DNA from: Chryseobacterium sp. PMSZPI
Lineage (GTDB): Bacteria > Bacteroidota > Bacteroidia > Flavobacteriales > Weeksellaceae
NCBI RefSeq assembly: GCF_002835665.1
Contig: NZ_PIZV01000034.1
Location: 1 to 64,000 of the forward strand
DNA length: 64,000 nucleotides
Direction: 5' to 3'
Shown here: positions 13,203-24,060 of the stretch, in pieces
Numbering within the stretch: position 1 is the stretch's first letter
Layout of the letters: each line of letters starts with the position of its first letter
Made by a program: the position numbers and the translations under genes
Notes under the pieces: generated by a model
The model's input: the letters and a program-made list of their open reading frames with translations, nothing else
Database searches by the model: none
What the model was told of the DNA's origin: nothing

Positions 13203-14846
13203 ATGAAACTGCCTATAGAATTAGGAGATGAATATATAAATACAGTTTTATCCAACCTTTCTTTAAAAGATCTTCCCAATGAAGAATGGAAACTGATAGA
13301 AGATTTTGAGAATTATGCCATCTCTAATTACGGACGAGTAAAAAGCCTGGAACGTTGGGTTTCAAACCCCAATGGAGGAGAACAGAAAATATTGGATAGA
13401 ATCAAAAAGCCACAAGCTTTCAGATATTTCAATAAACACTTAAAGACTCATTTTTTTAGTGTGAAATGTGATCTTTGTATCGAGGGAAGATCATATGGAA
13501 AATCAGTAGCACGTTTAGTGTATTATCATTTTGTTGAAAAATTCAATATGGATGATCATTCATTTCTTATATCTTTTAAGGATGACAATCGATTTAATGT
13601 ACATTTTAGTAATTTAGAGAAGTTAACAGTAGGCCAGCTGCATAGTAAGTCGCTAAGTACCGGTAGAGGAAAGAAAGGAAATTATCAGCAGGCAGTTAGT
13701 CAGTATACTGTTGATGGAAATTTTGTCGCTTCTTACGAAAATATTTATGCCGCAAGTGAAGCTTTGGAAATTTATCCTCCTCATATTCTATCAGTAATCA
13801 ATAAAAAAAAAATTACCGCAGGAAAATTTCTATGGTTTGAAAAAGAATATAAGCCCAGTAAAAAAGATTTTATACCATCAAGAAAAAGTAAGCCAGAAAA
13901 GATACTCAATACAAGTTTGTGGAAAAGGCTCGGGCAGCCGCTAATCGATGAAAACAACCCTCCGGCCTGTATGAACTTATCACTAAAAAATCTTCCCGGA
14001 GAGCATTGGAAGCCGTTTCCTGATCTTGAGCCCTATTTCGCCATTTCCAATAAAGGAAGAATAAAGAGACTAAACACCTGGACACAAAGTATAAGCCAGA
14101 CTTTTTGGAAGGAGCAGATCATCTCACTCTTTGTACAAAAGTCTGGTAATGAAAAATATTATCTTTACACTAAAATAAATTGCAATGGAATAGGCTATAA
14201 TGTAGCAATTATCAGAATGCTTTACTATTGCTTTATTGAAAAGTTCGATCTTAAAGACAGGAATCTGGTGATCATAAACAAAAATGATCCACAATGGGAT
14301 TTAGATATTTCAAAATTGACCCTACAGTCTGTTACTAAAATCCTTACTGAAAGAAATAAACAGTATGCTACTAAGGTAAGAACGGTACTTAATTCCAAAG
14401 AGGTATTCAACAATTCTCTTTGGGAAAAACTAGGTAAGCCCCCAATTAATAAAGAAAACCCTCCCTCTATTTTCGATTTATCTTTAAGAACCTTACCGAA
14501 TGAGCAATGGAAACCGTTACCAGGTTTTAGCGAAAAATATTTTATTTCTAATAAAGGAAGAGTAAAACGATTAAGTGGATGGAGAGCCGGCATTCATTTT
14601 TATGAAGAGGAACAAATTATTTCTTTGAACTTGACAAAAGGCAAATATCCTGTTCTTTATTTTAAGTTACATCCAAAGGTAGATAATGTTAAAAAAATGC
14701 TTTTCCGGTTTCTTTGCTGCTCTTTTGTTGAAGAATTTGATATAAATAACAAAAACCTTCGGGTAATTAATGAAAATGAGAGGCTGTGGAAGATCGATCT
14801 GTCAAAGCTATCATTACACCCAATGATAGACTCATTAAAAAAATAA
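13203..14846 (+). CDS. Protein with three NUMOD4 plus degenerate HNH-like units
   Basis: 547 residues built from three similar units. Each starts with a NUMOD4-type segment (LPNEEWKLIEDF, ISNYGRVKSL near 22; HWKPFPDL, ISNKGRIKRL near 262; QWKPLPGF, ISNKGRVKRL near 428). Each ends with an HNH-endonuclease-like tail (about 102-142, 337-373, 500-538) of the form LxYxxFxExF, then N, then a S-L pair. The invariant HNH histidines of active homing nucleases are absent in all three. A NUMOD1-like segment (YENIYAASEALEIYPPHILS, about 178-197) follows the first unit. Linkers SLWxxLGxPxI and NPP recur before units 2 and 3. Known NUMOD modules bind DNA in homing and phage nucleases, so this is probably a DNA-binding but nuclease-dead relative. 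No partner gene is visible. Confidence 0.75.
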   Translation: MKLPIELGDEYINTVLSNLSLKDLPNEEWKLIEDFENYAISNYGRVKSLERWVSNPNGGEQKILDRIKKPQAFRYFNKHLKTHFFSVKCDLCIEGRSYGKSVARLVYYHFVEKFNMDDHSFLISFKDDNRFNVHFSNLEKLTVGQLHSKSLSTGRGKKGNYQQAVSQYTVDGNFVASYENIYAASEALEIYPPHILSVINKKKITAGKFLWFEKEYKPSKKDFIPSRKSKPEKILNTSLWKRLGQPLIDENNPPACMNLSLKNLPGEHWKPFPDLEPYFAISNKGRIKRLNTWTQSISQTFWKEQIISLFVQKSGNEKYYLYTKINCNGIGYNVAIIRMLYYCFIEKFDLKDRNLVIINKNDPQWDLDISKLTLQSVTKILTERNKQYATKVRTVLNSKEVFNNSLWEKLGKPPINKENPPSIFDLSLRTLPNEQWKPLPGFSEKYFISNKGRVKRLSGWRAGIHFYEEEQIISLNLTKGKYPVLYFKLHPKVDNVKKMLFRFLCCSFVEEFDINNKNLRVINENERLWKIDLSKLSLHPMIDSLKK

Positions 14847-16120: not shown

Positions 16121-16973
16121 TTATTTTGATTTAGGTCCATATTCTTTATACAACATGGGAAGAATTTTTTCAAGATTAGTATACTCTTCCAATGCATGAT
16201 AATTTAAACCACGCAAAGCATTATTGGTTGGGTTCAGTTCTTTTGAAAGCCAAAATCTGCTTCTAAGTTCTATTCCATTTTTTGTTCTCCTTACAAAGTG
16301 AACCATGTTAATAAAACCTTTTGCACAAATTGCCGTTCCAACATTAGGTTCTTTAAATTGAGACATATCAAAGCCAAACTCTTCCGGAGAAACAAATTTG
16401 ATATTGATATCTGCTGCCCCCATCCCAATATCTTCATTGATTAAGTGGGTAACCTCCCAATTTTTTTCGTGAATCGGAATACGATCAGAAAGCAACGTTT
16501 CTCTTTCTTTTTTACCGACAGCAACATCATAATGTACATAATGATCCCATATCTTATATCTTAGCGGATCAAGCTGATGCCATGTAAACCACCAATCAAA
16601 CATTTCAGGTGTCACTCCTTTCATTTCTAGAATTGATGACACATATCCGGTTCCATCCGGTAACACACAATACCCAATTTCAGAAGGCAAATATCCCGGT
16701 TTTAGTAAATATTGAAAGTGCTTTTGCAGGGTCTAATGGTCCTTTTTTAATAGCATTTGTTTTTGCTTTATCCACAGGAGCCATTGGCATATAAAAGTAT
16801 TTGGCAAGAGGTTGTTTTTTCTCTTCTTCAGACAGAATTTGTTTGGAAATTTTCCGACCATCCAATACGGTAACCTTTTCTGTTTTTGAAAAAATGGCAT
16901 TACGAGCCTGACTATAGATCGTTGTCGGAATCATTGCAAGTGCCATACCTGCAATAAAACTATTATATTTCAT
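16121..16973 (-). pseudogene. DAPG hydrolase (PhlG) family protein, frameshifted
   Basis: Two adjacent frames together encode one protein of about 283 residues. The first (16973-16680) has a signal peptide (MKYNSFIAGMALAM, ending IYSQ) and ends after LSIFTKTGIFAF. The second (to 16121) continues with PGYLPSEIGYCVLPDGTGYV and the family core: VTPEMFDWWFTWHQLDPLRY, HYVHYDVAVG, and a C-terminal NYHALEEYTN. The break falls at TTTT, 16700-16703; one base fewer there would restore KPGYLPSE. Enzymes of this family cleave a carbon-carbon bond in acylated phloroglucinols (DAPG, phloretin) and use zinc. The mutation is either a real inactivation or a homopolymer sequencing error. Confidence 0.8.
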
Positions 16974-17605: not shown

Positions 17606-17630
17606 TTGTACTATTTTGATCAAATAGTTG

Positions 17631-17698
17631 CGATCCGGCTCGAACCCGCGACCTCCGCCGTGACAGGGCGGCATTCTAACCAGCTGAACTACCGGATC
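17631..17698 (-). tRNA. tRNA-Asp (GTC) lacking the 3' half of the T arm
   Basis: The acceptor stem (GATCCGG / CCGGATC), D arm (GTTC AGCTGGTTA GAAT), anticodon arm (CCGCC CTGTCAC GGCGG, anticodon GTC) and the 5' T stem with loop start (GCGGG TTCGAG) are all canonical. The acceptor 3' strand then follows directly. The last loop base and the five bases pairing with GCGGG are missing, giving 68 bases instead of 74. A full promoter and a strong terminator flank it. CCA is not encoded. It is either a damaged extra copy or an assembly error; a T-armless tRNA would be exceptional in bacteria. Confidence 0.75.
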
Positions 17699-18009: not shown

Positions 18010-18017
18010 TATCTTTG
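18010..18017 (+). promoter_or_regulatory. -7 promoter element of the predicted ascorbate operon
   Basis: TATCTTTG ends four bases before the ATG of the aldo/keto reductase gene, implying a leaderless operon message. No correctly spaced TTG is visible. Confidence 0.5.
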
Positions 18018-18021
18018 AATT

Positions 18022-18957
18022 ATGATCAATTCACATATTAGAGATAAAAAACTTATCAGTGTAAATTCTACTCCTGTATTCCCTATTTCTCTTGGTGGAG
18101 CGGGCCTAGGCTCTTGTAAAGAAAATATTTTTTTTGAAGGACCCGTTTCAGAAAAACAAGCTGTTGAAACAGTTTTATTTGCGCTAGACAATGGAATTAA
18201 TCTTATCGATACTTCCCCTTTTTATGGTGATAGCGAAACCAAAATAGGGATTGCTTTACAAGAATATGGAAAACGGTCATCCATTGTTCTGTCCACAAAA
18301 GTAGGTACACACCCTCAATATAAAGGTTATACTCCGGACAAAATTCTTAGAAGCATTGAGAACAGTTTAAAAACATTACAAACAGATTACCTCGATATCT
18401 TACACATCCATGACCCTTCTGATATTAACCTTCAAAGTATTATGAAAAATGGTACCATAGAAGCTTTACTTCGACTAAAGGAAGAAAAAGTAATTTTAAA
18501 TCTTGGGCTTGGAGTTCGTGATCATCAACTCCATTTTCAATTCATTTCATCAGGATATGCCGATGTTATTTTACCCTATTTAGATTATAATCTCTTGCGT
18601 ACTGATGCCGGTAATCTATTAGAAAAAGCTTATCAGGAGAAAGTTTCCGTAATGCTTGGATCGGCTCTGTGTATGGGATTGCTCTCCGGAAACGACCCAT
18701 CCCAAATTAATATTCGTCATTATAATATAGAGCAAGACGTTTCAATAAAGAAATCCCAACAGATGTATGACTGGTGCAAACAAAACAATGTTGATCTGAT
18801 GGCTCTCAACTATCAGTTTATCCTTACTCATCCGGCGGTAAACACTATCATTGTTGGAGCATCTTCCAAAGAGGAAGTACAAAAAAGCTTACATGCTTAT
18901 AACGAACCTGTTAACCCCAAAATTATGAATTCTTTTTTAAAACAGTTTAATTTTTAA
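18022..18957 (+). CDS. Aldo/keto reductase, L-galactose dehydrogenase-like
   Basis: 311 residues, cytoplasmic, with an NAD(P)-dependent TIM barrel. The catalytic tetrad is visible as Asp63 and Tyr68 in LIDTSPFYGDS, Lys93 in LSTKVG, and His130 in ILHIHDP. Features shared with plant L-galactose dehydrogenase and L-fucose/aldose 1-dehydrogenases include an ADVIL-Y segment, a C-terminal MGLLSG and IIVGAS. These enzymes oxidise a free aldose at C1 to the lactone. It is the first gene of a three-gene operon, 32 bases before the Nudix-epimerase fusion. In that context the predicted reaction is L-galactose to L-galactono-1,4-lactone. L-fucose or D-arabinose would be the main alternative substrates. 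Confidence 0.85.
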   Translation: MINSHIRDKKLISVNSTPVFPISLGGAGLGSCKENIFFEGPVSEKQAVETVLFALDNGINLIDTSPFYGDSETKIGIALQEYGKRSSIVLSTKVGTHPQYKGYTPDKILRSIENSLKTLQTDYLDILHIHDPSDINLQSIMKNGTIEALLRLKEEKVILNLGLGVRDHQLHFQFISSGYADVILPYLDYNLLRTDAGNLLEKAYQEKVSVMLGSALCMGLLSGNDPSQINIRHYNIEQDVSIKKSQQMYDWCKQNNVDLMALNYQFILTHPAVNTIIVGASSKEEVQKSLHAYNEPVNPKIMNSFLKQFNF

Positions 18958-18989
18958 TAAAAATACAACCAACTCACTTAACAAAACTT

Positions 18990-20567
18990 ATGAAAAAAAA
19001 CCTTTTACATTACAAAGATGAAAACATCTTACAATCATCAACCGGAATGATTCCTACGGATGTTTACCGCACAATTCTCGACAACGTTCCCCTAGTCTGC
19101 GTTGATTTGATTATCATCAAAGACAACAAAGCTTTCCTTACCAAACGTAAAAATAAGCCCTGCAAAGATGTATATTGGATGCAAGGTGGCAGAATGTTAA
19201 AAAACGAAGGAATAGAAGAATGTGGAATAAGAAAAGCCGCCTTAGAACTGAATATTCCTGCAGACAAAATAAAAATCACAAACTATTTGGGTACCTTCTC
19301 TACAGAATTTAATGATTCTGAACAAGGAGCTTCTTCACATACGATAAATGTAACTTTTCAGGCAGAAGTTGATGCTGATATTTCTTTAGGTTTTGACCAT
19401 GATCATTCCGATGGAAAGTGGTTTGATATCAACGGAACTATTCCAACTGAATTACAAAGTCAGTATATACATCATCCTTATATTGCTGAGATATTAAAAA
19501 TGATTGAACCCAAACGCACTTTAAAAACTGATAAAATCAAAGTATTAGTGACAGGAGCAAGCGGGTTCATAGGATCTCATTTAGGTAAACGACTAAAAAA
19601 AGAAGGATATTATGTAGTAGGAGCAGATTGGAAAAGTCCGGAATTTATGCAGCCCAACGAATTCTGTCACGAATTCCTTAGAATTGATCTAAGGGTAATG
19701 AAAAACTGTTTGCAGGCTTGCGAAGGAATTGACTGGGTTTTCAATCTTGCAGCTGATATGGGAGGCATGGGCTTTATCCAAAGTAACCACAGCCGAATCG
19801 GATACAACAACACAATGATCAGTTTAAATATGCTGGAAGCAGCAAGACACCATAACATCAAACGTTACTTTTATTCTTCAAGCGCTTGTGTATACCCTCT
19901 ACACGCACAAGACGATTCTGAAAACACAATTGGATTAAAAGAGAGTGATGCATGGCCGGCTCAACCTCAAGACATCTATGGCCTTGAAAAATTGTACGGT
20001 GAAGAACTCGCCATGAAATATGCAGAAGAGTTCCCACAAATGCAAATGCGTATTGCCAGATTTCACGGAATTTATGGTGAGCAGGGAACCTGGAAAGGAG
20101 GAAGAGAAAAAGTACCTGCTGCCTTCTGTCGTAAAGCAGCTGCTGCGGAATCTGTTTTCGAAATCTGGGGAGATGGTGAACAAAAACGTTCTTTCTGCTA
20201 CATTGATGACTGTGTAGAAGGTGTTATCAGAATTATGAAATCTGACTATGACAAGCCTCTCAATCTAGGTTCGGAAGAAATGATTTCTATGAATGATTTT
20301 GCCAAGCTTGTTATGGAAATTGCAGGAAGAAATCTACCTTTAAAACATATTGAAGGGCCAGAAGGTGTTCGTGGAAGAAATTCAGACAACAGCCTCATCG
20401 AAGAAGTGCTGGGCTGGAAGCCATCAATCCCTTTAGCTATAGGAATCGAAAAAACCTATCAATGGATTAAAGAACAGATAAAAGCAGAAAAGCAAACCGG
20501 AGTTAACACATCTGTATATAGTGAATCAACGGTAGTGGTTACAGAAGCATCAGATATTAATGCTTAA
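18990..20567 (+). CDS. Fusion of GDP-mannose-hydrolase-type Nudix domain and GDP-mannose 3,5-epimerase
   Basis: 525 residues in two domains. Residues about 35-165 are a Nudix fold whose box begins at Gly66 (GGRMLKNEGIEECGIRKAAL). It has the R and shortened end (LELNI) typical of GDP-mannose glycosyl hydrolase (Gmm), which releases free sugar and GDP rather than cutting the diphosphate. Residues about 183-500 are a short-chain epimerase with TGASGFIGSH (from 188) and the YGLEK catalytic pair (Tyr330, Lys334). Hallmarks of plant GDP-mannose 3,5-epimerase are present: SSSACVYP (Cys300, the acid/base cysteine), GTWKGGREKVPAAFCRKA and GPEGVRGRNSDN. Predicted chemistry: GDP-D-mannose to GDP-L-galactose, then L-galactose plus GDP. 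Its last 8 bases overlap the next gene. The epimerase assignment is strong; the hydrolase's preference is inferred. Confidence 0.9.
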   Translation: MKKNLLHYKDENILQSSTGMIPTDVYRTILDNVPLVCVDLIIIKDNKAFLTKRKNKPCKDVYWMQGGRMLKNEGIEECGIRKAALELNIPADKIKITNYLGTFSTEFNDSEQGASSHTINVTFQAEVDADISLGFDHDHSDGKWFDINGTIPTELQSQYIHHPYIAEILKMIEPKRTLKTDKIKVLVTGASGFIGSHLGKRLKKEGYYVVGADWKSPEFMQPNEFCHEFLRIDLRVMKNCLQACEGIDWVFNLAADMGGMGFIQSNHSRIGYNNTMISLNMLEAARHHNIKRYFYSSSACVYPLHAQDDSENTIGLKESDAWPAQPQDIYGLEKLYGEELAMKYAEEFPQMQMRIARFHGIYGEQGTWKGGREKVPAAFCRKAAAAESVFEIWGDGEQKRSFCYIDDCVEGVIRIMKSDYDKPLNLGSEEMISMNDFAKLVMEIAGRNLPLKHIEGPEGVRGRNSDNSLIEEVLGWKPSIPLAIGIEKTYQWIKEQIKAEKQTGVNTSVYSESTVVVTEASDINA

Positions 20568-21915
20568 AGTAAATAATTATACATGGATCAACTGGGCAGG
20601 AAATTATTCCTGCCTTGCTGAAAATTATTTTGAACCTGAAACAGAAGAACAGATAATCGATATTGTCAGATTTGCAGGAATAAATAAGAAAAAGATTCGC
20701 GTGGTCGGTTCAGGGCATTCATTTACTCCATTAGCCCTGAGTAATGAAATTTTAGTATCTCTTAAAAATTATCGAAATTTAATTTCAATAGGCCAAGATT
20801 TCATCACCTGCCAGGGAGGAATGTATTTGCATGAATTGTACTCCATAATGAAAGTCAACAATTTATCCTTTCCCAATTTCGGAGTTATCAATAAACAAAC
20901 TGTTGCCGGAGCATTGGCTACAGGTACACATGGTAGCGGGTTAAAACATAAAAGTCTTTCCGCACAAATAAAAAAAATACGTATTATACAAGCATCAGGA
21001 GATATATTGGAAATAAGCAAAGATGATGTATTAAAAATCGGTAATAAAGAGTTGAATCTTTGGGACGCAGCATCTATTTCATTAGGTACTCTTGGAATTG
21101 TCACAGAGGTAACATTACAGTGTGAACCTTTATTTTATCTAAAATCAGAGGAATCGATTATTGGATTTGACGAGTACCTTGACTCCATGGATGAATATGC
21201 TAAAAAATATGAGTATTTCAAAGCCTGGTGGTTTCCTCATACAGACAAAGTATATGTATTTAAAGCTGAGCGAATCCCGAAAGAACTTTATCTTGAAAAA
21301 GACAAGCTTCAAAACTATACCGATGAGCAGAGAAAACGCGACTCTGAAATTGATGTATTAACCGCTCCTTTATTCATAAAAAGCAATGAAGAAACTTTTC
21401 TAATTCCAAAAATCAATGCCTACTGTCTTGATTTCTTTTTCACACCTCGTATAAGAGTTGGAACTAGTTTTGAAATCTTAGTCCATGATGAAACAGTGCC
21501 AATGGTGGTTTCCGAATATGGATTGCCTATATTGGATAATTATCACAAAAAAGCATTAAAAGAATTCAGAGATACTTTGGAACACTCCGGACAAAAGATC
21601 CACTTCCCTATTGATCTTCGTTATACGGCCGCTGAAAGCTCATGGTTAAGCCCTTCTTACCAACAGGACACTTTTTATATTGGAATGTGTATTCGTGAAT
21701 ATCATAAAAAAGAGATTCATCCGTCTATGCAGCTATTTTTTGATGTTATGAAAAAATATAGAGCTTGTCCTAATTGGGGTAAACTTTCAGACTTATCTAA
21801 AACAGTGTTGGATGAAAGGTTTCCAAAGTTGAAAGATTTCCGGGAACTTCGTAATGACCTGGATCCGGACGGTACATTCTTAAATGATTTTACGAAAGAT
21901 ATTTTCCTTCCTTAA
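20560..21915 (+). CDS. FAD-dependent aldonolactone oxidase (L-galactono/L-gulono-lactone oxidase family)
   Basis: 451 residues of the VAO flavoprotein family. The FAD domain (about 20-190) contains VVGSGHSFTPLAL, whose His53 matches the covalent flavin histidine of gulonolactone oxidases, and later THGSGLKHKSL and LGTLGIVTEV. The substrate domain follows, with an FPIDLRYTAAESSWLSP segment where family members usually have E-x-R. The usual C-terminal HWxK motif reads NWGK (Asn405-Lys408). No signal peptide is seen. Family members oxidise L-galactono-, L-gulono- or D-arabinono-1,4-lactone to ascorbate or erythroascorbate. Overlap with the epimerase fusion (ATGCTTAA) indicates translational coupling. 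L-galactono-lactone is the predicted substrate from context. Confidence 0.85.
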   Translation: MLKVNNYTWINWAGNYSCLAENYFEPETEEQIIDIVRFAGINKKKIRVVGSGHSFTPLALSNEILVSLKNYRNLISIGQDFITCQGGMYLHELYSIMKVNNLSFPNFGVINKQTVAGALATGTHGSGLKHKSLSAQIKKIRIIQASGDILEISKDDVLKIGNKELNLWDAASISLGTLGIVTEVTLQCEPLFYLKSEESIIGFDEYLDSMDEYAKKYEYFKAWWFPHTDKVYVFKAERIPKELYLEKDKLQNYTDEQRKRDSEIDVLTAPLFIKSNEETFLIPKINAYCLDFFFTPRIRVGTSFEILVHDETVPMVVSEYGLPILDNYHKKALKEFRDTLEHSGQKIHFPIDLRYTAAESSWLSPSYQQDTFYIGMCIREYHKKEIHPSMQLFFDVMKKYRACPNWGKLSDLSKTVLDERFPKLKDFRELRNDLDPDGTFLNDFTKDIFLP

Positions 21916-22109: not shown

Positions 22110-23321
22110 TTAATTCCGTTGGGAAAATGATAAATAAATACACCAGCTCCCAATTAAAGCCAAAAATGAAGCAAATATAAAAGGAGCTCCACTAAAGAAT
22201 ATTGGGGTGTTATCAGAAGTAAAATAAGCAAATATCCCGGTCATTAATAATGGTCCAAAAACTGCTGTAATACTACCAATACTGGATAATCCTCCCTGGA
22301 GCACTCCCTGTTTGTTATCGGGTACTTTTGAAGATATCATACTTTGGAGTATAGGGGTAGCCATTCCTCCTAATGCATACGGAATCATAACGACAAAAGC
22401 CATCCATGATGCATTGATGAACCCAAAAAGCAACAAACTAACACAATAAATGAACATACAAACCATAATAGCTTTCTTCTGTCCTAATTTGTCAATAAAT
22501 AATCTAATAAATAATCCTTGGGATACTACCATTAAAATGCCAAAAAAGCCTAATGAGTAACCTATCATATCTGCCTTCCAGTTAAATTTTTCCATTCCAT
22601 ATACATTCCAGATACTCGACATAGCGTGACCCGCCAAAGCTATAAATACAAAAGCAATGATCAGATATGGTCCCAATATTTCTTTTTTAATACTTTTCAT
22701 GGCACTGATAGGGTTGGCAGCTTTCCATGAAAATGATCTTCGATTATCATCTTTAAGTGATTCGGGCAAAACAAAAAAACCATAGATCAAATTGAGTAAG
22801 CTCAATGCAGCAGCTGTATAGAAAGGAATTCGCTCTCCATAATGACCTAATACTCCCCCGATCAGAGGACCTATTATTAGACCAAGCCCTGCAATTGCAC
22901 TTATCATTCCAAAATTCTGGCTTTTCTTCTCCGGGGTACTGATATCTGAAACATATGCTGTAACCGTTGTCATACTGGATCCCATAATTCCCGCAATTAT
23001 TCTTCCAACAAACAGCCATATAAGATTGGGTGCCATTGCCAGAATCAAATAATCTATTCCAAGTCCCAATAAAGACCATAACAATAATGGCCGTCTCCCG
23101 TAACGATCACTAAGACTTCCCAATACAGGAGCAAATATAAACTGCATTAAGGCATATAGGGATATAAACCAACCAATATACTTTGTTGTAGCACTTAGAT
23201 CTCCATTCGATAATTTTAAAATAAGTGTGGGTAACACAGGAGCTACAATTCCTATCCCAATAATATCAATCAGAACTGTAACATAAATAAACACTAATGC
23301 GTATTCTTTTTTCCTAATCAT
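22110..23321 (-). CDS. MFS exporter (TetA/multidrug-resistance type), probable peptide exporter
   Basis: 403 residues from the ATG at 23321 (MIRKKEYALVFIYV). Twelve hydrophobic spans are visible. The loop 2-3 MFS signature is GSLSDRYGRRPLLL, and further family signs are GIGIVAPVLPTL in span 1 and a PIIGG-like IIGPLIGGVLG. This is the drug:proton antiporter group related to tetracycline exporters. The frame is open 15 codons further up (23366), but the shorter start is preferred: its ATG overlaps the last 8 bases of the thioesterase gene (ATGATTAG), a coupling arrangement. Placement at the end of the synthetase gene cluster suggests export of, or self-protection against, the peptide product. 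Confidence 0.85.
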   Translation of the reverse strand: MIRKKEYALVFIYVTVLIDIIGIGIVAPVLPTLILKLSNGDLSATTKYIGWFISLYALMQFIFAPVLGSLSDRYGRRPLLLWSLLGLGIDYLILAMAPNLIWLFVGRIIAGIMGSSMTTVTAYVSDISTPEKKSQNFGMISAIAGLGLIIGPLIGGVLGHYGERIPFYTAAALSLLNLIYGFFVLPESLKDDNRRSFSWKAANPISAMKSIKKEILGPYLIIAFVFIALAGHAMSSIWNVYGMEKFNWKADMIGYSLGFFGILMVVSQGLFIRLFIDKLGQKKAIMVCMFIYCVSLLLFGFINASWMAFVVMIPYALGGMATPILQSMISSKVPDNKQGVLQGGLSSIGSITAVFGPLLMTGIFAYFTSDNTPIFFSGAPFIFASFLALIGSWCIYLSFSQRN

Positions 23322-24060
23322 GATAAAGATAATTGTTTGATTTAGCAGTTGCAGTATCCATTGCATTTTTAATAATCTGTGCGAGATAATTGAAATGCTG
23401 ATTGATAAAGAAGTGATTTCCTTTTACAATTTGGCATTCGCAGCCGGCAGTTGTATAGTTTTGCCAATTTCTAATGTTGAGTGCGTACTGCTCATCTTTA
23501 CCCATTACAGCATAAATTGGTGTCTGTATTTTTCCATTAAAAGTCCTATTTTCATTGTTTTCTAATAATCCGAAATCAGCTCTGAGTAAAGGTTCAAAGA
23601 AATCAAGCAATTCTTCTATTTCCATTACCTCATCGGACAGCCCACCAAGTTTTCTCACTTCAGCAAAAAAGTCTGTTCTTGGCAGTTCTGAAATGGGAAG
23701 ATTTTTTTTTATTTTGGGTCCGGGGAAACCTGTAGGAATAAAATATTTAGGAGCATCTCCATTATTCTCCATAATCTGGCATATTTCAAGTCCCAGGATA
23801 GCACCCATACTATGTCCATAGATAATGTAAGGAACATTTTTTTTCCTTGTTTGCTTTATCTGGACCAGTAAATCTCCTACTGCTGTTTGTTTATTCTCCA
23901 AAAAAGGTTCAGACATACGTTCTCCTCTTCCCGGAAGTTCCGGAGTTTCTATCTGAAAATATGATTGTAAATTTTCGATTAGGGGACGAAAAGAGTTTTT
24001 GTCTCCGCCCGCATAATGTAATAAATAAATCTGCGGTTTTGATGATATTGTTGTGTTCAT
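23314..24060 (-). CDS. Type II thioesterase of the NRPS cluster
   Basis: 248 residues, alpha/beta hydrolase, cytoplasmic. Motifs of the GrsT/SrfAD family are present: LLHYAGGDKNSF at the start, ELPGRGER near 40, the nucleophile in YGHSMGA near 85, and the late histidine in VKGNHFF. Such enzymes free stalled or mis-primed carrier proteins by hydrolysing acyl groups from the phosphopantetheine arm. It begins 53 bases after the giant synthetase gene, with a hairpin between, and overlaps the exporter gene by 8 bases. Confidence 0.92.
   Translation of the reverse strand: MNTTISSKPQIYLLHYAGGDKNSFRPLIENLQSYFQIETPELPGRGERMSEPFLENKQTAVGDLLVQIKQTRKKNVPYIIYGHSMGAILGLEICQIMENNGDAPKYFIPTGFPGPKIKKNLPISELPRTDFFAEVRKLGGLSDEVMEIEELLDFFEPLLRADFGLLENNENRTFNGKIQTPIYAVMGKDEQYALNIRNWQNYTTAGCECQIVKGNHFFINQHFNYLAQIIKNAMDTATAKSNNYLYHD

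Follow-up and report, generated by a model that had tools for sequence, protein, structure and literature searches.

A three-gene operon predicted to lead from GDP-mannose to L-ascorbate or a near relative in Chryseobacterium

Three adjacent genes of Chryseobacterium sp. PMSZPI (Bacteroidota, Weeksellaceae), located within positions 1 to 64,000 of contig NZ_PIZV01000034.1 (this entire stretch of 64,000 nucleotides is referred to as the window), encode an aldo/keto reductase (AKR), a fusion of a Nudix hydrolase domain with a GDP-mannose 3,5-epimerase (GME), and a flavoprotein of the aldonolactone oxidase family. Judging from sequence, these genes probably constitute a self-contained, horizontally mobile operon which would lead from GDP-D-mannose to L-ascorbate or, by the same steps, to a near relative. 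The identity of the GME, the type of the Nudix domain, the presence and order of the genes, and their conservation were read from the sequences. By sequence, the route appears well supported up to the GDP-L-sugar, less so for the release of the sugar, and plausible for the continuation to ascorbate.

Gene order and proposed route

All three genes are located on the forward (+) strand, with 32 bp between genes 1 and 2 and an 8 bp overlap of genes 2 and 3. Gene 1 (18022..18957, 311 aa) encodes the AKR and matches Pfam PF00248 (Aldo_ket_red) with 142.6 bits (cut-off 24). Gene 2 (18990..20567, 525 aa), with full-length relatives in four other genomes, comprises a Nudix half (19062..19442, residues ~25-151; Pfam NUDIX, 35.7 bits, cut-off 21.1) and a GME half (19539..20549, residues 184-520; Pfam Epimerase, 155.5 bits, cut-off 20.9). 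Gene 3 (20560..21915, 451 aa) encodes the flavoprotein and matches PF04030 (ALO) with 162.4 bits (cut-off 23.1) as well as PF01565 (FAD_binding_4) with 85.8 bits; the scores for Aldo_ket_red, Epimerase, NUDIX, and ALO all exceed the curated cut-offs. An earlier note on this DNA had described three coupled genes for an AKR, a Nudix-epimerase, and an oxidase, which is confirmed by the open reading frames (ORFs), their Pfam domains, and the same order in four further genomes. Its start coordinate of 18010 lies 12 bp too early, while the remaining coordinates hold, and every motif it quoted (SSSACVYP, GTWKGGREK, GPEGVRGRNSDN, and GSGHS) was found in the translations. Due to the recurrence of the whole order in four other genomes, the arrangement is not considered a chance association. 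A promoter and terminator scan gave a result no better than chance.

In the proposed route, the GME half would epimerise GDP-D-mannose to GDP-L-galactose and/or GDP-L-gulose, and the fused Nudix half would cleave the product at C1 to the free L-sugar and GDP. The AKR, as an L-galactose or L-gulose 1-dehydrogenase, would then oxidise the free L-sugar at C1 to the 1,4-lactone. The flavoprotein, with a predicted covalent FAD and an oxidase-type glycine, would finally oxidise the lactone at C2 with O2 to L-ascorbate. We infer the substrates of the second to fourth steps and the end product. The Nudix step would stand in for the plant phosphorylase (VTC2) and phosphatase (VTC4) and would draw the reversible epimerisation forward. 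If a free L-sugar is wanted, a sugar-releasing hydrolase on a GME makes sense, because a sugar dehydrogenase and a lactone oxidase adjoin.

Similar to the plant Smirnoff-Wheeler (D-mannose/L-galactose) pathway, the operon comprises a plant-type GME, an AKR-superfamily sugar dehydrogenase, and a flavoprotein of the galactonolactone dehydrogenase (GLDH) superfamily, in the order of the plant route. In contrast to the plant pathway, the three genes are linked and occur in bacteria, and neither a phosphorylase nor a phosphatase is among the three operon genes; the GME-fused Nudix domain would replace both. Furthermore, the AKR falls outside the clade of plant L-galactose dehydrogenases (L-GalDHs), and the flavoprotein is of the covalent-FAD oxidase type and not a GLDH. 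A supply of GDP-mannose in this genome seems plausible. A mannose-1-phosphate guanylyltransferase-like gene matches positions 3-352 of TIGR01479 with 262 bits, which is under the cut-off of 373 set for a two-part enzyme of 467 positions.

The Nudix-epimerase fusion

The assignment of the GME half to the plant-type GDP-mannose 3,5-epimerases, as claimed by the earlier note, is well supported by its similarity, its catalytic residues, and its place in the tree. Its five best matches in the Protein Data Bank (PDB) are GDP-mannose 3,5-epimerases with 468-475 bits, followed by the next family with 105 bits. Identity to 2c59 and 8sg0, the latter presumably from a plant as well, amounts to 59-60% with the C-terminal tail included, and blastp yields 435-439 bits to these two versus at most 378 bits to the free-standing prokaryotic GMEs compared. 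The catalytic residues S298, C300, Y330, K334, K374, and R463, matched to the Arabidopsis numbering by hand counting on the alignment of PDB matches, are all present and invariant in an 8-row alignment. According to PMC8787198, four of the five best PDB matches (2C54, 2C59, 2C5A, and 2C5E) are Arabidopsis GME entries, and GME catalysis relies on Ser, Tyr, and Lys of the short-chain dehydrogenase/reductase type, a Cys/Lys acid-base pair, and an Arg. The plant-like C-terminal tail, although shared, is not an exclusive mark: among 108 prokaryotic GMEs, 5 likewise reach residue 335 or a later one (of 348) in the alignment.

In a tree of 70 GMEs (4 from operons, 2 from plants, and 64 others, with bacterial rows thinned from the best 80 of at least 553 candidates plus family and phylum samples), the operon and plant GMEs form one clade (100/99). 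All 64 free-standing prokaryotic GMEs fall outside this clade, including four from the window's own genus. A quick 62-row tree with the fifth operon added and long rows removed gave the same operon-plant group (SH-aLRT 99). Forcing the operon GMEs together with six free-standing GMEs of the same family, a group picked after the tree had been seen, was rejected by the approximately unbiased (AU) test (p-AU 7.6e-29). Both the tree and this test lead us to reject an origin from the free-standing GMEs of that family. It weighs against an extensive reading of the grouping that only two eukaryotic GMEs, both taken as plant, are in the tree. The phylogeny that the earlier note had proposed as a check on eukaryotic origin groups the epimerase half with plant GMEs, a placement which suggests that genes were exchanged, one way or the other, by bacteria and eukaryotes.

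Free-standing GMEs occur in 11 other genomes of the family sample (L007-L017), with 46-49% identity to the GME half of the fusion; six of these were placed in the tree and represent a lineage different from the operon GME. Among the known GDP-mannose 3,5-epimerases, plant GME and the bacterial GM35E of Methylacidiphilum have the same catalytic residues as the operon enzyme, the identity of 59-60% referring to the two plant GMEs. Unlike these enzymes, the operon GME is fused to a Nudix domain, and it is located with the plant GMEs outside the 64 free-standing prokaryotic ones. The first bacterial GME to be characterised is described in PMC6678494.

For the Nudix half, the closest relative by sequence is supported to be GDP-mannose mannosyl hydrolase (Gmm/NudD), the enzyme that frees the sugar, in line with the Gmm-type domain proposed before. 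The best phmmer match in the PDB is the E. coli enzyme 1rya (39.5 bits, 28% identity), followed by plant Nudix hydrolase 1 with 23 bits. On the alignment, D39, R53, R68, R81, E86, and H139 correspond to D22, R37, R52, R65, E70, and H124 of the E. coli enzyme, residues which, like H88 and Y103, we take to have functional roles there. The operon relatives retain all of these except R81, which is Lys in the copy of the uncultured Bacteroidetes Ja_bin-4406 (Ja_bin). Within the Nudix box, the RExxEE part reads R81-KAAL-E86, with only the last Glu remaining, as in R65-LTMA-E70 of E. coli; a modified Nudix box together with the equivalent of the catalytic His124 is the rule for GDP-mannose mannosyl hydrolases. 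In a Foldseek search with a predicted model of low confidence (mean pLDDT 56), GDP-mannose mannosyl hydrolase took ranks 1-4 by E-value among 128 matches (E<=0.001); its TM-scores were 0.42-0.54, and the root-mean-square deviation was near 8. At E<=1e-12, no standalone relative of the Nudix half was found in 197 other genomes of the phylum.

Several observations weigh against this assignment. H88 and Y103 of the E. coli enzyme face T105 and T118 in the window's Nudix half, the NCBIfam model NF011963 (GDP-mannose mannosyl hydrolase) gives 45 bits at a cut-off of 146, and by TM-score several other Nudix enzymes, e.g., 3i7u (0.53/0.69), fit the model better. The release of the sugar is less well supported by sequence than the formation of the GDP-L-sugar. 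It is conceivable, albeit improbable in our estimate, that the Nudix half cuts the pyrophosphate like NudK and AtNUDX9, yielding L-galactose 1-phosphate and GMP, and that a phosphatase encoded elsewhere continues as in plants. According to a title cited in PMC3744803, GDP-mannose mannosyl hydrolase substitutes at carbon, unlike other Nudix hydrolases; that most Nudix enzymes cut at phosphorus and that the Y103 and H88 equivalents are not conserved would agree with cleavage of the pyrophosphate. Cleavage of the pyrophosphate is opposed by the E. coli-like reduction of the RExxEE part to its last Glu, by the equivalents of D22, R37, R52, E70, and H124, and by the fact that no phosphatase is among the three operon genes. 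The C1-cleaving hydrolase preferred here would differ from Gmm/NudD in the Thr residues, the fusion to GME, and a presumed L-sugar substrate.

The sugar dehydrogenase and the lactone oxidase

All five best PDB matches of the AKR are named L-galactose dehydrogenase (84-107 bits). The D-Y-K-H tetrad of the AKR family is present (D63, Y68, K93, and H130) and is common to plant L-GalDHs and bacterial L-fucose dehydrogenase-like AKRs. The L-galactose dehydrogenase features noted earlier are borne out as to family and tetrad, but not as to a grouping with the plant L-galactose dehydrogenases. Identity is 28-34% to everything found and 32-34% to two L-GalDHs, and in a 21-row tree the four operon AKRs are located on a separate long stem (1.72) apart from the three L-GalDHs that presumably come from plants (8scc, 7smi, and 7ezi), which speaks against a plant-type enzyme. 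They sit weakly (85/75) beside bacterial AKRs resembling L-fucose dehydrogenase and pyridoxal dehydrogenase, of which one is annotated as pyridoxal 4-dehydrogenase and one is encoded adjacent to an L-fuconate dehydratase gene. Due to the alike configurations of L-fucose and L-galactose, this position fits an L-galactose dehydrogenase, with which it is compatible without being a demonstration. At E<=1e-20, relatives of the AKR were found in just 5 of 246 other genomes, all in the range of 29-33% identity.

Gene 3 has GLDH and xylitol oxidase as PDB matches and, on sequence grounds, encodes a flavoprotein of the aldonolactone oxidase family whose pocket is altered; the operon suggests which substrate it may use. 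In all five operon oxidases, GSGHS with the covalent FAD position (H53) and the oxygen-reactivity Gly (G108, NFG) are kept. The meanings of the motifs (FAD His, oxygen-reactivity Gly, ExR pair, and HWxK) follow a table in PMC9602106. Two of these motifs depart from the family in 5/5 operon oxidases, ExR being DLR (D352-L-R354) and HWxK being NWGK (N405-W-G-K408). Among 13 comparators (11 loci, the engineered ancestral GLDH 8qnc, and 2vfr), to which the operon oxidase is 26-31% identical, HWxK occurs in 13 and ExR in 10; L201 has DVR, and L220 and L221 have Leu. Due to the replacement of the hallmark Glu and His by Asp and Asn in all five operons, the substrate cannot be read from the family. 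The aldonolactone oxidase with GSGHS of the earlier note is borne out as to FAD His and oxidase Gly.

The caveat of the earlier note that the product may be a relative of ascorbate stands. With the first half of the route unchanged, the flavoprotein with Asp and Asn could yield such a relative or another oxidised lactone, an outcome which we judge unlikely though not negligible. It would suit the contrast between the operon motifs and those of the comparators, as well as the divergence of AKR and oxidase from known families, which the GME does not share. This possibility is countered by the retained Lys of HWxK, Arg of ExR, FAD-His, and oxidase Gly. In addition, Asp at ExR is not unique to the operons, since L201, from another Bacteroidota genome, shares it. 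Moreover, the C2 oxidation of L-galactono- or L-gulono-1,4-lactone yields L-ascorbate, which remains the preferred product.

Against a close assignment of gene 3 stand scores under the NCBIfam cut-offs for sugar 1,4-lactone oxidase (264/397) and GLDH (TIGR01676, 88/458). Compared to GULO, ALO, AldO/xylitol oxidase, and M. tuberculosis GUDH, the operon oxidase has in common the FAD domain with GSGHS, the ALO domain, the oxidase-type Gly, the Arg of ExR, and the Lys of HWxK, and differs in the Asp and Asn mentioned above and in its low identity. Scores for TIGR01678 and TIGR01679 are about equal in the five operon oxidases (264/257, 264/237, 270/256, 242/243, and 257/257), in contrast to three plasmid-borne bacterial relatives which favour TIGR01679 by 146-351 bits. 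By these hidden Markov model scores, a eukaryotic origin of the oxidase was considered suggestive only. In a tree without eukaryotic GULO/ALO rows, the clade of operon oxidases found no definite place (66/86), and the structure model (pLDDT 46) was of no use. Relatives at E<=1e-40 were found in just 2 of 246 other genomes, all in the range of 29-33% identity. As an odd shared pair, a D-arabinono-1,4-lactone-oxidase-family gene is followed by a 'sensory rhodopsin transducer' gene in both a haloarchaeon and Deinococcus (L220 and L221).

Distribution, genomic context, and significance

Full-length fusions were found in 3/296 genomes of the family sample, 1/395 of the phylum sample (the window itself), and 3/395 of the class sample, and a contig scan revealed three among the best 80 of at least 553 candidates. 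As the samples overlap and each includes the window's own genome, the fusion-bearing genomes reduce to five, i.e., that of the window, C. phosphatilyticum ISE14 (L040, L038), C. rhizosphaerae KCTC 22548 (L041, L039), Ja_bin-4406 (L042), and G925 (L270), the latter representing a third family code; Ja_bin-4406 and G925 are Bacteroidota of families other than that of the window. G914 carries the operon at the same contig place as Ja_bin-4406, on an equally long contig (79,800). The search for the gene order in other genomes suggested earlier thus revealed its conservation: AKR, fusion, and oxidase follow each other in 5/5 genomes with the fusion, apparently at four sites in all. Identity to the window copies is 74-88% for the fusion, 56-71% for the AKR, and 60-74% for the oxidase. 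Of 18 comparisons of four copies, 8 have a finite dS; these involve only the three Chryseobacterium copies and give a dN/dS of 0.03-0.10, at dS values of 1.3-2.0 that are near saturation. Relatives of AKR, Nudix half, and oxidase (E<=1e-6) were observed next to free-standing GMEs in 0/77 loci (among the best 80, flanks partly short). On viral contigs, a Nudix, AKR, or oxidase relative was near a GME in 0/80 loci kept, and none of the four plasmid records with GME-type matches at E<=1e-60 holds a full-length one.

The operon lies 323 bp from a tRNA-Asp gene (17626..17698, - strand) which is situated upstream and belongs to a tRNA-Asp array; a second tRNA-Asp gene is located at 82155-82229 of the contig (18155-18229 of L266). 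In C. phosphatilyticum, which has this site in common with the window's genome, four tRNA-Asp genes occur on one side of the operon and a fifth on the other. Of 39 other genomes with the desulfurase gene of the flank, eight from the genus were selected; they carry 2-5 tRNA-Asp genes at the site and no operon in the 9 kb read. In these genomes (L258-L265), the array next to the cysteine desulfurase gene is accompanied by polysaccharide-type genes (by eye), a phage integrase, single ORFs, or nothing; five tandem tRNA-Asp genes mark the empty site in L258, and the integrase is found in L260. Within the genus, the array thus has the look of a hot spot for insertions. The operon neighbours in C. 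rhizosphaerae, Ja_bin, and G925 differ as far as the ORF lists show, and the Ja_bin operon comes after a transposase with an rve domain (IS3-like by reading). These surroundings fit horizontal movement.

On its other side, the window's operon adjoins an ORF of 13,277 aa (24114-63947, - strand) which by eye reads as a giant many-module nonribosomal peptide synthetase (NRPS). The second tRNA-Asp gene lies past this NRPS. Contig positions 64001-69788 (L266) are occupied by another ORF, which is open at the edge and measures at least 1,929 aa. Located beside the NRPS are a Tet-like major facilitator superfamily transporter (22110-23366), with 346 bits to the Tet model and thus under the cut-off of 475, and a thioesterase-like ORF (23314-24060, by eye). 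Given this neighbourhood, the operon might supply or remove a sugar for the NRPS product or for a surface polysaccharide, comparable to the L-gulose of bleomycin, and PMC8787198 links bacterial GME to lipopolysaccharide and possibly to antibiotics. Such a role is very improbable in our assessment. For the four other copies, ORF lists spanning 15-18 kb each, inspected by eye and without a family search, show no giant NRPS-like ORF. Glycosyl transfer would furthermore be defeated by a hydrolase which consumes the GDP-sugar, and no glycosyltransferase is among the three genes. Membership in an NRPS cluster was rejected on account of these flanks. Since the same order recurs in four other genomes, apparently at four sites in all, the operon is considered a travelling unit and not a part of the adjacent NRPS locus.

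Upstream in the window, positions 13203-14846 (+ strand) encode a protein in which three NUMOD4 motifs are the sole Pfam domains. A relative with two motifs and 46% identity is located 0.6 kb beyond the C. rhizosphaerae operon (L039, 3377-4582, - strand), which could reflect chance or a mobility-linked gene. At 16121-16690 (- strand), a gene with a TTG start encodes a DAPG hydrolase (PhlG) domain protein; it may be broken, with an out-of-frame N-terminal-like part just upstream, to ~16974.

The capacity to synthesise ascorbate de novo is considered a trait of eukaryotes. A 2015 study found ascorbate synthesis in prokaryotes to be without clear evidence (PMC4396506), and PMC12614181 still describes bacteria as unable to make ascorbate. 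PMC9602106 argues that prokaryotic aldonolactone oxidases are worth studying and refers to reports of ascorbate from prokaryotes. The plant route is reviewed in PMC11066809, which also notes that it has been reconstructed in E. coli. Among the top matches listed from the open-access literature, subscription papers being mostly outside this scope, neither this operon nor an L-galactose route to ascorbate in bacteria is reported; the predicted bacterial version of the plant ascorbate route would be new.

The linkage of the three genes in named strains (C. phosphatilyticum ISE14 and C. rhizosphaerae KCTC 22548) makes the question directly testable. A Nudix-GME fusion would shorten the route to L-galactose, L-gulose, and vitamin C, and would be useful for fermentation. 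A bacterial three-gene set would run against the view of ascorbate synthesis as a eukaryotic trait. It is an evenly balanced possibility that some Bacteroidota synthesise vitamin C de novo, starting from GDP-mannose, by means of a mobile three-gene cassette. Its plant-type GME would probably stem from an exchange with a eukaryote, and the Nudix domain fused to it would release the sugar and replace two plant enzymes.

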